From: Synechococcales cyanobacterium GL140_1_metabinner_5_sub
Lineage (GTDB): Bacteria > Cyanobacteriota > Cyanobacteriia > Cyanobacteriales > Chamaesiphonaceae
Reading direction: 5' to 3'
DNA length: 64,000 nt
Assembly (NCBI GenBank): GCA_025359065.1
Contig: JANYHM010000045.1
Coordinates: forward strand, 1-64,000
Position numbers and translations under genes: made by a program. Position 1 is the stretch's first letter, and each line of letters starts with the position of its first letter. The notes under the pieces are model-generated. The model did not search any database. It was given only the letters and a program-made list of their open reading frames with translations, and was not told the DNA's origin. Of this stretch, positions 52,820-61,617 are shown one piece after another.

Positions 52820-53262
52820 GGCTGATGCTGTTCTTCACAGGCTCCGATGCTTACCCAGCTACTGCTGCCATCGCTCCAATGTTCTTTTTTCCAAATGGGG
52901 GCTTGGTGTTTGAGGGTATCGATCGCGTATTGGCAAGCGGCAAAGGCTTCGCCTCGGTGGGGTGCCCCTACGGCAATAAGAACGCTGATTTCGCCGACGC
53001 GCAGTTTACCGACTCGATGATGAATGACGGTGCGGGTGACGATCGGCCATTTTTGGCCAACTTCGTTGGCAATTTGTGCAAAGACCCTCAAAGCCATTGG
53101 TTCATAGGCTTGATATTCTAGGTACTCTACTGGCCGCCCCTCGGTTTGGTTGCGCACCATGCCGCTCATGACGACCACTGCTCCGTTGGCACCGTTATCG
53201 GCGAGTTCGTAGACTTCTTGAAGTTCGATCGGGGCAAAGCAAATTTTGAAGTCGGTGGTCAT
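52816..53262 (-). CDS. moaE: Molybdopterin synthase catalytic subunit
   Basis: 148 residues. VVVMSGMVRNQTEGRPVEYLEYQAYEPMA, then HHRVGKLRVGEISVLIAVGAPHRGEAF and KHQAPIWKKEHW with the catalytic Lys are MoaE signatures. With MoaD it inserts sulfur into precursor Z to make molybdopterin, needed for example by nitrate reductase. moaD is not adjacent. It overlaps the UPF0182 gene by 4 bases and may be coupled to it. Confidence 0.95.
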   Translation of the reverse strand: MTTDFKICFAPIELQEVYELADNGANGAVVVMSGMVRNQTEGRPVEYLEYQAYEPMALRVFAQIANEVGQKWPIVTRTVIHHRVGKLRVGEISVLIAVGAPHRGEAFAACQYAIDTLKHQAPIWKKEHWSDGSSSWVSIGACEEQHQP

Positions 53263-53317
53263 GGGCAGATCCTTTGGCGATTTTCAGATCTTAATAGTTA
53301 TTGTGCTTAATATCGGT

Positions 53318-56289: not shown

Positions 56290-57384
56290 ATGGGCAACAG
56301 TTTCGGCAAACTATTCAAAATTTCCACCTTTGGTGAATCCCATGGCGGCGGCGTGGGTGTGACGATCGACGGTTGCCCACCCCTATTAGAAATCAGCGCT
56401 GAGGAAATTCAGTTTGAGCTAGATCGCCGTCGCCCTGGCCAAAGTAAGATCACCACCCCTCGCAAGGAGAGCGACACCTGTGAGATTCTTTCGGGTATCT
56501 TTGAGGGCAAGACCACCGGCACTCCGATCGGCATCTTAGTACGTAATAAAGACGCACGTTCCCAAGATTATGATGAGATGGCTGGGAAGTATCGTCCTTC
56601 CCATGCTGATGCTACTTACGATGCCAAATATGGTATTCGCAACTGGCAAGGAGGAGGTCGTTCTTCGGCCAGGGAAACTATTGGTCGGGTAGCTGCCGGG
56701 GCGATCGCCAAGAAAATTCTTAAGCAGTCGGCGGGGGTAGAAATTATTGGCTATGTGAAGCGAATTCAAGATTTGGAAGCAGCGATCAATACCGCCACTG
56801 TGACTATGGAACAGGTGGAAAGCAACATTGTGCGCTGTCCTGATCCAGCTTGGGCAGAGAAGATGATCGCGCGCATTGAAGAGATCGGGCGGGCTGGAGA
56901 TTCGATCGGCGGAGTAGTGGAGTGTGTGGTACGAGGAATGCCCAAAGGTTTGGGAGAGCCAGTGTTCGATCGATTAGAAGCCGATATTGCCAAAGGGGTC
57001 ATGTCATTGCCTGCCACCAAAGGCTTTGAGATTGGTTCAGGTTTTGCTGGAACACTGATGACTGGCAGTCAGCACAATGATGAGTTTTGTTTGGACGAGC
57101 AGGGTAATTTAAGGACTGTAACCAACCGATCGGGCGGCACCCAGGGGGGCATTAGTAACGGTGAGCACATTATTATTCGGGTGGCCTTTAAACCTACTGC
57201 TACTATCCGCAAGGAGCAGCGTACTGTAAGTGCGGCTGGTGAAGAAACTACTTTAGCGGGCAAAGGTCGCCATGATCCCTGTGTGCTGCCCCGCGCAGTG
57301 CCGATGGTGGAAGCCATGGTAGCTTTGGTACTCTGTGACCATTTGATGCGTCAAAACGCCCAGTGTAACTTGCCGAATATGTGA
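56290..57384 (+). CDS. aroC: Chorismate synthase
   Basis: 364 residues. The family signatures [17 protein letters not shown], then [52 protein letters not shown] and [18 protein letters not shown] are all present, including the FMN-contact Ser/Arg loop. It catalyses the last step of the shikimate pathway. Two other shikimate genes (DAHP synthase and aroK) follow within 7 kb. Confidence 0.97.
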
Positions 57385-57463
57385 TTGTTTGTTCAATAGA
57401 AAAGAACGTAGACAACGAACTCAAATCGGCTAATATCGTAAAGTTGACCTCTGCCATGCTGCT

Positions 57464-58429
57464 ATGAAACTCGCCTTCATCATCGACCCGATCGCCAAAC
57501 TCGACCCCACCCACGACAGCAGCGTGGCCATGATGGAAGCCGCCGGAATCCTTGGGCATCAAGTTTATATCACCACCGCCGAACAACTTGCCGTCATCGA
57601 CGGTCGCGCCGCCGCCTTCCTGCAAACCATCCAAATCGAACCAGTCAAACTGGTCGAACAACGCTGGATTGCGATCGAGCAGTGGTATCAAGTCGGTCAA
57701 CCAGAACTGATCTTTCTGGACGAAATGCAGGCGGTCTTCATGCGTACCGATCCGCCGGTAGATGTGCCATATCTATACATTACCTATATCCTGGACTATG
57801 TAGACCCGCAAAAAACCCTGGTAGTCAACAACCCCAATGGACTGCGCGCCGCCAACGAAAAAATGTTTGCCATGCAGTTCCAAGAATGGATGACCGACAC
57901 AATCGTCACCCGGGACAAAAAAGTAATCAGAGAATTCGTCGAAAAACACCAGGCCGCCGTCATGAAACCTCTGGGGGGCAAAGCAGGTGAAGGCATCTTG
58001 TTCCTGCAACCAGAAGACCGCAACATCAACTCCTTAGTAGAAATCAGCACCCAATGGGGCAAGTATCCCATGATGATCCAAAAATTCTTACCCGCTGCTA
58101 AAGACGGCGACAAGCGGATCATTGTTTTGGATGGTCAACCCTTGGGCGCGATCGATCGCATTCCGACCGGCAAAGAATTCCGAGGTAACATGGCCGTAGG
58201 TGGCCGAGTCGCCGCTGCGAAAATTACTGATCGGGAGCTAGAAATGTGTGCAGACATGGCTCCCAAGCTTAAACAATATGGCTTATACTTCGTGGGCATC
58301 GATGTGATCGGCGGCTACCTCACCGAAGTCAATGTCACCAGCCCTACCGGAATTAGGGAAATCGATCGGCTTAATAACATCTCCTTAGGAAAACAAGTCA
58401 TCGAATGGGTCGCTGCAAAACAAGCTTAA
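57464..58429 (+). CDS. gshB: Glutathione synthetase
   Basis: 321 residues. The prokaryotic GshB start MKLAFIIDPIAKLDPTHDSSVAMMEAA and the ATP-grasp part with NNPNGLRAANEKMFAMQF, KPLGGKAGEGILFL, RVAAAKITDRELEMC and DVIGGYLTEVNVTSPTGIREI are intact. It adds glycine to gamma-glutamylcysteine. It stands between aroC and the DAHP synthase leader, 80 bases after aroC. Confidence 0.96.
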   Translation: MKLAFIIDPIAKLDPTHDSSVAMMEAAGILGHQVYITTAEQLAVIDGRAAAFLQTIQIEPVKLVEQRWIAIEQWYQVGQPELIFLDEMQAVFMRTDPPVDVPYLYITYILDYVDPQKTLVVNNPNGLRAANEKMFAMQFQEWMTDTIVTRDKKVIREFVEKHQAAVMKPLGGKAGEGILFLQPEDRNINSLVEISTQWGKYPMMIQKFLPAAKDGDKRIIVLDGQPLGAIDRIPTGKEFRGNMAVGGRVAAAKITDRELEMCADMAPKLKQYGLYFVGIDVIGGYLTEVNVTSPTGIREIDRLNNISLGKQVIEWVAAKQA

Positions 58430-58488
58430 GCAAGCTATGATAAAACTTCAAATACCTGCGCCGACGGTTCGCAGAGTAGAAAAAATTC

Positions 58489-58617
58489 ATGAAACCCCAT
58501 CATTCTCTGTATTTAATCTTCAATAACTTAGCGAAAACGACTGCTTGCTGCGAGTTGCAAGCAAACTGGTGGCGATTTAAAACCAGCTACTGTTGGCGAC
58601 CATATTACCAAGCCTAA
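58489..58617 (+). promoter_or_regulatory. Aromatic-rich leader peptide upstream of DAHP synthase
   Basis: A 42-codon frame begins MKPHHSLYLIFNN and ends with a dense aromatic block: NWWRF at codons 26-30, SYCWR at 33-37 and PYY at 38-40. It holds three Trp, four Tyr and two Phe, with two adjacent Trp codons at 58567-58572. It stops 61 bases before the DAHP synthase ATG. Clustered codons for the pathway's end products ahead of its first enzyme are the mark of ribosome-mediated attenuation. I see no classical terminator hairpin with a T-run downstream, so control could be by Rho, anti-sense pairing or translational coupling. Confidence 0.6.
58542..58563 (+). promoter_or_regulatory. Hairpin within the leader
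   Basis: TGCTTGC (58542-58548) pairs with GCAAGCA (58557-58563), covering codons 18-25 just before the Trp pair. A second short pairing, CTGGT (58566-58570) with ACCAG (58582-58586), overlaps the first Trp codons. A ribosome stalled at the Trp codons would open both. Confidence 0.45.
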
Positions 58618-58678
58618 AAATATTTCTAGCCCCTAAAAAACTATCAATTTTCAATTCTCCACTATCAATTAAATAATC

Positions 58679-59722
58679 ATGGAAGATAAAATTTCTGACG
58701 CTTGCATCGACAAGTCCCAAGTGCTTATGCCTCCCACTGCCCTTAAGGCTGAGTTACCCCTAACTCCAGAATTAGAGCAACAGGTTCTTAAGCATCGGTC
58801 AGACATCAAAAACATTCTGGATTTCCGCGACAGCCGCAAGTTTGTTGTCCTCGGCCCTTGCTCAATTCATGATGTCTCTGCGGCTATGGAGTACGCTCAT
58901 AGGCTCAAAGAATTATCAGACAGAGTTTCCGACAAGCTTTTACTCATCATGCGGGTCTACTTTGAAAAACCCCGCACCACCGTTGGCTGGAAAGGTTTGA
59001 TCAACGACCCAGACCTGGATGATTCTTTTGACGTAGAAAAAGGATTGCACATTGGTCGTCAGCTCTTACTCGATATTACGAAACTAGGCTTGCCCACTGC
59101 CACAGAAGCATTGGATCCGATCGTCCCTCAATATATTGGTGATTTGATCTCTTGGGCCGCGATCGGCGCGCGCACGACCGAGTCTCAGACTCACCGAGAA
59201 ATGGCCAGTGGTCTTTCGATGCCAGTAGGTTTCAAGAATGGTACTGACGGCAGCATTAAAGTAGCGCTAAATGCCTTACAGTCGGCGATGCAGCCTCACA
59301 ATTTCCTGGGTATCAATCAGGAGGGACAAGTAAGCGTGTTCCAGACTATCGGTAATGCTTATGGCCACGTGATTTTACGCGGTGGCGAAAGTCAGCCTAA
59401 CTATGATTCGGGCAGTGTGGCGGAAGTGGAAGCAGCTTTGAAGAAGGCTGGTCAGCAACCCCGAATTGTAATCGATTGCAGTCACGGCAATTCCAACAAG
59501 GATTACCGTTTACAGCCGATCGTGCTAGAAAATGTGGTGCAGCAAATTGTGAGCGGCAATCACTCGATCGTTGGTCTCATGCTAGAGTCTCATTTGTTTG
59601 AGGGCAGTCAATCGATCCCGGCTGATTTGAGTGAGCTGAAATATGGGGTTTCGGTAACTGATAAGTGTATCAATTGGGATCAGACTACCGAGATTATTAT
59701 GGCGGCCTTCGATCGGCTCTAA
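58679..59722 (+). CDS. 3-deoxy-7-phosphoheptulonate (DAHP) synthase, class I (AroF/G/H type)
   Basis: 347 residues. The class I motifs FVVLGPCSIHDVSAAMEYAHRL, MRVYFEKPRTTVGWKGLINDP, IGARTTESQTHREMASGLSMPVGFKNGTDG and IVIDCSHGNSNKDY are present, including the metal-binding Cys, His, Glu and Asp. It catalyses the first step of the shikimate pathway, usually feedback-inhibited by Phe, Tyr or Trp. It is preceded by an aromatic-rich leader frame, and two copies of ACTATCAATT lie between leader and start. No strong ribosome-binding site is visible. Confidence 0.96.
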   Translation: MEDKISDACIDKSQVLMPPTALKAELPLTPELEQQVLKHRSDIKNILDFRDSRKFVVLGPCSIHDVSAAMEYAHRLKELSDRVSDKLLLIMRVYFEKPRTTVGWKGLINDPDLDDSFDVEKGLHIGRQLLLDITKLGLPTATEALDPIVPQYIGDLISWAAIGARTTESQTHREMASGLSMPVGFKNGTDGSIKVALNALQSAMQPHNFLGINQEGQVSVFQTIGNAYGHVILRGGESQPNYDSGSVAEVEAALKKAGQQPRIVIDCSHGNSNKDYRLQPIVLENVVQQIVSGNHSIVGLMLESHLFEGSQSIPADLSELKYGVSVTDKCINWDQTTEIIMAAFDRL

Positions 59723-59727
59723 ATTTT

Positions 59728-59764
59728 TAAACCATCAGATAAAAATAATTTTTCTGATGGTTTA
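59728..59764. terminator. Hairpin after DAHP synthase
   Basis: TAAACCATCAGA (59728-59739) and TCTGATGGTTTA (59753-59764) pair perfectly, with A/T pairing inside the loop. The stem lies 5 bases after the DAHP synthase stop and 15 bases before the end of a convergent gene. T-runs inside the loop but not after the stem make it an imperfect terminator, plausibly two-way. Confidence 0.6.
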
Positions 59765-59778
59765 GCTTAAGATTGAAT

Positions 59779-60204
59779 TTATAACCACTGTCCACCGCGA
59801 TAGCGACTGTGAGGAAACATTACCCTTAGTAGGCTGTGGGCAGCAAGAAACATCATGAGGCTGGCGATCGCATATTGCAACAGCAGCCACTGAATAGGCA
59901 AAGAGTTGGTATTGATTCCTGGGAGTTGATTAACCTTGAGCAGCAGTGCCAAAATCCCTCCTTCCACCATAGCTCCAGCTAGCTGGAGCAAACCTGGCCA
60001 ATCGCTATCCCAACGCAGCTTTTGAATTTGTTGGGTAACTACATCAGAGATAATGCCGCAGACTCCCATATAAATTAGCAGCACCAAATAAGAAAAACTC
60101 TTGGGCGAAAACAGTCCCAAAGCAAAAGGCAATGAGACGAGTAGCCCCACTGTAGGCAGCAAAAACAAGCGCATTTGCCAACGACCAAAGAGCGTAGGAG
60201 TCAT
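59779..60204 (-). CDS. Four-span membrane protein encoded after ndhH
   Basis: 141 residues with hydrophobic spans LFLLPTVGLLVSLPFALGLF, YLVLLIYMGVCGIISDVV, LAGAMVEGGILALLLKV and LQYAIASLMMFLAAHSLLRVMF. It begins 6 bases after the ndhH stop, so it is almost surely co-transcribed with it. No named family is recognised. Its position suggests a link to the NDH-1 membrane complex or its assembly, which is inference only. Confidence 0.6.
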   Translation of the reverse strand: MTPTLFGRWQMRLFLLPTVGLLVSLPFALGLFSPKSFSYLVLLIYMGVCGIISDVVTQQIQKLRWDSDWPGLLQLAGAMVEGGILALLLKVNQLPGINTNSLPIQWLLLQYAIASLMMFLAAHSLLRVMFPHSRYRGGQWL

Positions 60205-61480: not shown

Positions 61481-61594
61481 CTAGAGTTGATTGTATTGGG
61501 CGACCCAATATAATCCACCGATCGCCAACACAGTTTGGCCAGCTAGGTAGTTAGCAAGATTTGGTTCAGGAGCAGCAGATTCAGGAGTGGTCAT
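61481..61594 (-). CDS. Small single-span protein of 37 residues between argB and ndhH
   Basis: The frame reads MTTPESAAPEPNLANYLAG then QTVLAIGGLYWVAQYNQL. It has a polar Pro/Glu-rich head and one hydrophobic segment of about 18 residues near the C-terminus. The size and pattern match the small single-helix subunits of thylakoid complexes, and it lies 23 bases after argB and 85 bases before ndhH on the same strand. I cannot assign it to a known family; NDH-1 or photosystem association is only suggested by position. Confidence 0.5.
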   Translation of the reverse strand: MTTPESAAPEPNLANYLAGQTVLAIGGLYWVAQYNQL

Positions 61595-61617
61595 CGATCG
61601 AAGAAAAAATTAAAGTG

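Follow-up and report, generated by a model that had tools for sequence, protein, structure and literature searches.

The window, a 64,000-nt stretch of contig JANYHM010000045.1, carries a gene for a DAHP synthase of the AroFGH type (aroF) that scored 504.6 bits against the TIGR00034 model (cut-off 173.2). Upstream, on the same strand, lie gshB and a gene that we take, from familiarity with its sequence, to be aroC (Table 1). A search of the whole genome returned a single PF00793 match, the gene in the window, and no match to PF01474; with one DAHP synthase per genome, this enzyme is a sensible control point. The 249-nt intergenic region between gshB and aroF contains an ORF that translates as MKPHHSLYLIFNNLAKTTACCELQANWWRFKTSYCWRPYYQA, followed by the stop codon. 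Its nine aromatic codons specify Trp at positions 27, 28 and 36, Tyr at positions 8, 34, 39 and 40, and Phe at positions 11 and 30; seven of them lie within the last 17 codons. The stop codon ends at 58617, leaving a gap of 61 nt to the aroF start. The length of this frame, its aromatic content and its spacing from aroF are as described in a first-pass annotation made from the sequence alone. A TATGAT hexamer close to the end of gshB may be the -10 element of a leader promoter, with no good -35 region; it was absent from the promoter-like sites obtained in a promoter scan over 58300–58760. Inspection of the sequence by eye revealed no Shine-Dalgarno sequence of note ahead of the ORF.

Table 1. 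Features of the aroF region in the window (positions are those of the window)
Feature	Position	Strand	Remarks
aroC (presumed)	56290–57384	+	Upstream of gshB
gshB	57464–58429	+	TIGR01380; upstream of the leader
Possible -10 element TATGAT of a putative leader promoter	58436–58441	+	Unchanged in G386
Inverted repeat CTGCG-9-CGCAG	58456–58474	+	Just before the leader ORF
Leader ORF	58489–58617	+	42 codons; 3 Trp, 4 Tyr, 2 Phe
Hairpin TGCTTGC / GCAAGCA, 8-nt loop	58541–58564	+	Ends 2–3 nt before the Trp pair
Core W-W-R-F-K-T, DNA motif TGGNNNCGATTTARAAHC	58567–58584	+	Common to the Chamaesiphon leader ORF
Second aromatic cluster Y-C-W-R-P-Y-Y-Q	58588–58611	+	Y-F-W-R-P-Y-Y-Q in G386
DAHP synthase (AroFGH type), presumed target	58679–59722	+	TIGR00034 aroFGH

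When the intergenic region was dinucleotide-shuffled 5000 times, an ORF of at least 42 codons arose in 679 cases, whereas none of the shuffled sequences contained an ORF with at least three Trp and at least nine aromatic codons, and seven aromatic codons within the last 17, together with a Trp, appeared only once. The length of the ORF is therefore uninformative, while its composition is informative. Among 205 ORFs of 20–80 aa located outside long ORFs on the 94.5-kb contig, three matched this composition, the window ORF included.

The family to which the window belongs was represented by 11 genomes: two of the window's genus, namely the window genome (G000) and that of a sister species (G386), and nine of a second genus taken to be Chamaesiphon. 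The first-pass annotation had named the loss of the frame from relatives as one observation that would speak against it. The frame was found to be kept, since G386 contains a homologous ORF at the same place that is 88% identical over 42 aa. Seven of the 42 codons differ between the two species; five of these differences alter the amino acid (four within codons 5–12) and two are silent. The G386 frame is interrupted by neither stops nor indels; the only indels lie outside it, one a 1-nt deletion before the ORF (58479) and the other a 2-nt deletion after it (58634–58635). Four of the first 16 codons are changed in G386, all of them non-synonymously, so that no coding constraint is visible on the peptide as a whole. 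The Trp-rich half is better preserved: the 116 nt between 58523 and 58638 show three substitutions, plus the 2-nt deletion beyond the stop. Four-fold sites differ between the two genomes by 0.374 in aroF and 0.326 in gshB. For this stretch, which was picked after viewing the alignment, the binomial probability of three substitutions in 116 positions was 8e-18, 3e-7 or 3e-4 when the background was set at 0.35, 0.18 or 0.12, respectively. Third codon positions are kept too, which indicates that the constraint goes beyond the peptide and acts on the nucleic acid.

Over the whole leader intergenic region, the difference per aligned letter was 0.077. This value is not unique, as other intergenic regions of the same pair of genomes, those alignable for most of their extent, gave 0.067 (a 152-nt region), 0.116 (a 70-nt region) and 0.182 over their aligned letters; the 152-nt and 70-nt regions are, however, less preserved over their whole length. 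When whole-length preservation was compared across 11 syntenic stretches (a background of few regions with crude gene calls), the leader ranked best with 0.912, the next values being 0.871, 0.761 and 0.737. Three further stretches with large length differences gave 0.311, 0.041 and 0.004, and four were unalignable for length.

The first-pass annotation had placed a hairpin just before the Trp pair. This hairpin is present, was predicted with a probability of 0.97 in both species, contains no substitution, and was the only one of four helices compared to be predicted in both. For the inverted repeat located just before the ORF, the folding prediction was positive in G386 (0.87) and negative in G000 (0.0); the segment 58451–58480 surrounding it contains no substitution and the 1-nt deletion at 58479. 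A long-range helix between 58459–58468 and 58589–58598, considered as a possible switch, was predicted in G000 but not in G386 and was dropped. Relative to shuffled sequences, folding gave z-scores of -1.1 for the whole leader, -0.4 for the ORF and -0.6 for the conserved part, and the window RNA does not appear to be clearly structured. As already remarked in the first-pass annotation, no standard terminator follows the ORF: no terminator-like site was found on the gene strand in 58300–58760, the sole site there being on the minus strand. A search of 58200–59000 against Rfam returned one chance match only (13.4 bits, minus strand).

The aroF upstream region could be read in seven of the nine Chamaesiphon genomes; the contig of G389 ends within aroF, while G393 is 77% complete and has no DAHP synthase match. 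All seven contain, before aroF, an 11-codon ORF of sequence M[YH]L[FYS]SWHRF[KR]I, in which a single Trp is preceded by one or two Phe/Tyr and followed by one Phe. The start codon, the length of the frame and the stop codon are kept in the seven genomes, the stop lying 214–236 nt upstream of the aroF start, and the Trp-His-Arg-Phe codons are identical to the last base in all of them. Pairwise differences among these leaders were 0.019 in the ORF core, 0.043 in the strand that pairs with it (see below) and 0.43 in the flank; at aroF four-fold sites the figure was 0.476 (six genomes). Inspection by eye located a TATAAT-like box upstream of the ORF in six of the seven, G388 being the exception. 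A block CTAACCAAAATATT, which is neither a Shine-Dalgarno sequence nor an obvious promoter, directly precedes the ORF (loci L142–L148), with small changes in G388. In the window ORF, an in-frame TTG at codon 23 (58555–58557), near which its conserved half starts, would give MQANWWRFKTSYCWRPYYQA, a layout nearer to that of the Chamaesiphon leader, with four residues before the first Trp vs five in Chamaesiphon.

A DNA search with the G388 leader against 291 genomes found matches covering the greater part of its length in the seven Chamaesiphon genomes only; five other genomes, G386 included, gave partial matches of 22–36 nt (E 5e-4 to 0.009). Similarly, a covariance model of the Chamaesiphon leader, run under strict filters against 195 genomes of the order, matched only these seven. 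When applied to positions 57400–59800 of the window, the model gave two chance matches (E 7 and 7.8), neither of them at the leader, which indicates that the two genera have the core in common but not the RNA architecture. The Chamaesiphon leader is present as one copy per genome, except for a second copy in G395, a genome with a reported contamination of 6. This copy (locus L220, G395:C192) sits right at a contig end, so that the gene following it is not visible; the gene upstream of it is presumably laccase-domain-like.

In the Chamaesiphon leader, the codons AGTTGGCATCGATTTA (strand 1) are predicted to pair with a downstream TGATCGATGCTTACT-like strand (strand 2), with a small hairpin between the two. 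The helices of this 1:2 stem are paired in 100% of the cells of the alignment (99.4% for the whole structure), and the core is locked within a stem of 18 pairs. A two-sided change was observed at one of 23 pairs, a result equalled by 454 of 500 shuffles, and 18 pairs are invariant. Pairing P1 is thus almost without covariation in Chamaesiphon, and rests on conservation and complementarity. Fold z-scores of the individual leaders ranged from +0.25 to -3.1. The end of strand 2, GCTTACT, is in addition complementary to a G[AG]GTAAGC-like strand (strand 3) located 76 to 107 nt before aroF, and this was the best duplex in six of the seven genomes. The complementarity of strand 2 exceeded that of shuffled sequences (Fisher P 1e-5 for the seven genomes, with relatedness ignored), and four of the seven were below 0.05 singly; G387 shows a weak 2:3 pairing (p 0.32), while in G388, which is counted in the Fisher figure, the best duplex is another one. 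The predicted 1:2 and 2:3 pairings are mutually exclusive, as in an attenuator, and 1:2 overlaps the presumed regulatory codons. A scan allowing loops of 3–8 nt detected no terminator on the gene strand of the seven leaders. In G395 alone, visual inspection showed a stem whose loop is longer, accompanied by a run of U. Positions 1000–1520 of locus L144, one of the Chamaesiphon leaders, gave no Rfam match up to E 1.

The window sequence NWWRFK and the Chamaesiphon sequence SWHRF[KR] have in common the peptide motif W-x-R-F-[KR] and the DNA motif TGGnnnCGATTTARAA, both of which were chosen after the two leaders had been seen. W-[WH]-R-F-[KR] is found in the nine readable genomes of the family. 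W-[WH]-R-F within a short ORF at most 500 nt from the DAHP synthase gene occurred in all nine, and in none of 107 loci outside the family, from Nostocales and other cyanobacteria (67 + 40, with some genomes counted twice and only 340 nt available for L158); over 30 rounds of shuffling, the mean was 0.0 for each set. This identifies the core as a feature of the family rather than of cyanobacteria. The conservation of the WWRF core, which the first-pass annotation had suggested looking for in other cyanobacteria, therefore holds in the sister species and, as W-H-R-F-[KR], in the seven Chamaesiphon genomes, but does not extend beyond the family. The DNA motif did not arise in 20000 shuffles of the window's intergenic region. 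The TGGNNNCGATTTARAAHC pattern was found in 10 of the 11 family genomes, at aroF in nine of them and also in G393; read backwards, as a control, it gave 0 to 3 matches per genome. No aroF follows the G393 match, which looks like chance. An extra occurrence lies at the G395 contig end. We take the core to be homologous between the two genera, within a different RNA architecture.

Other candidates were less convincing. W-x-R-F in a short ORF was seen at one of the 107 outside loci (L162, W-Q-R-F-R), against 0.83 expected from shuffles, and was attributed to chance; N-F-W-R-F at L150 was not kept in its relative L082. A search with the 42-aa peptide gave matches in 36 of 60 genomes at E up to 1, but beyond its own genome only that in G386 was strong; the next ones, in G039 and G213 (E 8e-4 and 0.004), contain internal stops and come from genomes that gave no match to this DAHP synthase. 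Aromatic richness of a milder degree is common: some ORF of 5–45 aa combining a Trp with at least 20% aromatic residues was present in 24 of 67 DAHP synthase upstream regions outside the family, though none of these ORFs resembles that of the window. No shared leader was found near trpE in 15 upstream regions of the 38 places matching the trpE model, although some contained Trp-containing short ORFs. The AroFGH-type enzyme had no match in 258 of 386 genomes, and the leader survey covers the genomes with a match.

The closest known arrangement is that of the AroR leader (Phe-Tyr-Phe), located before aroF in Corynebacterium glutamicum, where, according to a review, ribosome stalling raises transcription when Phe is limiting (excerpts of PMC11802643); AroR control of DAHP synthase is covered as well in a second article, according to which this species has two DAHP synthases (excerpts of PMC4046766). 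In both the window and C. glutamicum, an aromatic-codon leader ORF stands directly before the DAHP synthase gene. The systems differ in that C. glutamicum is an actinobacterium, and in that Phe-Tyr-Phe, the quoted core of AroR, is absent from the window ORF, Trp-x-Arg-Phe being found instead. In addition, AroR is described as acting by transcription attenuation whereas the window leader has no terminator that we could find, and a single DAHP synthase, rather than two, was found in the window genome. The uORFC-13-1 motif of Acholeplasma is a predicted upstream ORF found exclusively before aroF, with a proposed role in Phe sensing (excerpts of PMC8632094). It resembles the window leader in being a short ORF upstream of a DAHP synthase gene, but is followed by an apparent intrinsic terminator, derives its Phe codons from a U run, and is restricted to Acholeplasma and environmental sequences. 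We know of no peptide motif common to uORFC-13-1 and the window leader.

Leaders of the trpL type, found in Proteobacteria and Actinobacteria, also place Trp codons in a short ORF. The Streptomyces examples trpL1 (MFAHSTRNWWWTAHPAAH) and trpL2 (MMTRTCTQLWRAA) are described in PMC8079986, according to which trpL2 contains a single Trp and lacks a uridine-rich stretch. These two traits are shared by trpL2 and the Chamaesiphon leader; trpL-type leaders, however, control trpE or trpS, not DAHP synthase. Clustered codons for an end product upstream of a gene of its pathway, as in trp-type attenuators, are found in the window and in Chamaesiphon, while an intrinsic terminator between ORF and gene was found neither in the window nor in the seven Chamaesiphon leaders. 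The trpL leader of Escherichia coli has such a terminator. Beyond the one chance match, the two regions searched against Rfam matched no known cis-regulatory RNA such as a T-box, a riboswitch or a trp leader. Leader peptides without obvious terminators have been predicted in Actinobacteria (excerpts of PMC1262725), and the available part of a survey of leader genes in general reports no distance peak in cyanobacteria (PMC4833913). No cyanobacterial leader of this kind appeared in the open-access literature, among the matches listed (subscription papers fall mostly outside it), which agrees with the view in the first-pass annotation that such control is not established in cyanobacteria.

We consider it slightly more probable than an even chance that the 5′ leader of aroF in this family, in Chamaesiphon and in the window's genus alike, is a ribosome-sensing control element. 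The best reading is that of a family-specific, ribosome-sensing leader that would work like AroR of C. glutamicum; the data suggest that the translating ribosome may control entry into aromatic amino-acid synthesis. A ribosome on the short ORF would slow down at the Trp-x-Arg-Phe core during a shortage of charged tRNA-Trp or of another aromatic tRNA; in the window, the Tyr, Trp and Tyr-Tyr codons further along could slow it again. This slowing would change the amount of DAHP synthase made. In Chamaesiphon, a stall at the core would free strand 2 to pair with strand 3. The scheme supposes translation of the ORFs, aromatic supply as the signal and a rise in expression upon starvation, and it likewise supposes a route from the choice of fold to the gene. 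With no intrinsic terminator detected, the leader may act on translation, on RNA decay, or by halting transcription in a non-canonical way. For the window's genus, we claim no more than that an aromatic-rich ORF is conserved and contains the same core, and we name no switch. The first-pass annotation had compared this ORF to a ribosome-stalling attenuator; the conserved frame and core, and the mutually exclusive pairings of Chamaesiphon, favour that comparison, but the window lacks a conserved switchable RNA. Lacking this as well as a terminator, the window leader is one at which ribosome stalling can only be inferred. A broader proposition, which we consider rather doubtful, is that the family controls its single DAHP synthase by a ribosome-read leader without an intrinsic terminator in which the peptide core W-x-R-F-[KR], and not the RNA fold, has been kept; sensing would then fall to the nascent chain or to the codons, each genus having rebuilt its RNA read-out.

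The same sequences could be read in other ways. The conservation of third codon positions in both genera, and the enclosure of the Chamaesiphon core within its 18-pair stem, are what would be expected of a structured cis-regulatory RNA that binds a ligand or a protein, the ORF being incidental and its aromatic codons a by-product. We regard this as unlikely: the Chamaesiphon ORF keeps its start codon, frame length and stop in all seven genomes, the window's genus has retained the W-x-R-F-[KR] frame but not the Chamaesiphon fold, the two regions searched gave no Rfam family beyond a chance match, and the window RNA is not significantly structured. Alternatively, the sensor could be the nascent peptide itself, W-x-R-F-[KR] being an arrest peptide that stalls the ribosome in response to an aromatic metabolite, as TnaC, a ribosome-arrest peptide, does with free tryptophan. 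That the motif, including its non-aromatic Arg, is common to genera with different RNA folds, and in Chamaesiphon lies one codon before an invariant stop, would fit such a role, but in the window the core is followed by 11 more codons with no stop nearby, and the invariance of His-Arg in Chamaesiphon is explained by base pairing as well; an arrest peptide thus seems improbable.

Equally improbable, in our view, is a conserved promoter or operator region in which the inverted repeats would be transcription factor sites and the ORF an accident. The two inverted repeats of Table 1 are indeed among the most conserved parts of the window leader, and the -10-like element is also conserved, but this explanation does not account for the W-x-R-F-[KR] frame at the same place in Chamaesiphon, nor for the absence of an ORF of such composition from 5000 shuffles. 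A frame left open by chance in an intergenic region of ordinary conservation, with letters that happen to suit the neighbouring gene, would agree with the frequency of 42-codon ORFs in shuffles, with the Trp-bearing, aromatic-rich ORFs at 24 of 67 outside loci and with the lack of conservation outside the family; we nonetheless hold it to be very improbable, given how rare the aromatic composition is, and given that G386 has a homologue and Chamaesiphon a leader ORF built on the same core.

To our knowledge, little is known of how flux into the shikimate pathway is set in cyanobacteria, organisms in which aromatic products are a target of engineering. If the preferred reading of a ribosome-sensing leader is correct, this would be the first translated leader reading aromatic supply in cyanobacteria (in the open-access literature, among the matches listed), and ribosome-mediated control of DAHP synthase would have arisen in a further phylum. 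Searches demanding a terminator would miss leaders of this type. The Chamaesiphon leader is compact, with 11 codons, and is carried by G388, whose genome is nearly closed (three contigs); the idea may therefore be directly testable.

The surroundings of aroF show further variation. The AT-rich segment just before aroF (58639–58676) is part of a dispersed repeat, of which other genomes of the family contain many copies and the window genome a further one at C77:22589–22620. Three gaps between syntenic genes (59723–59778, 61514–61617 and 53260–53317) differ by 1 to 5 kb between G000 and G386, which suggests insertions or deletions in the vicinity of aroF.
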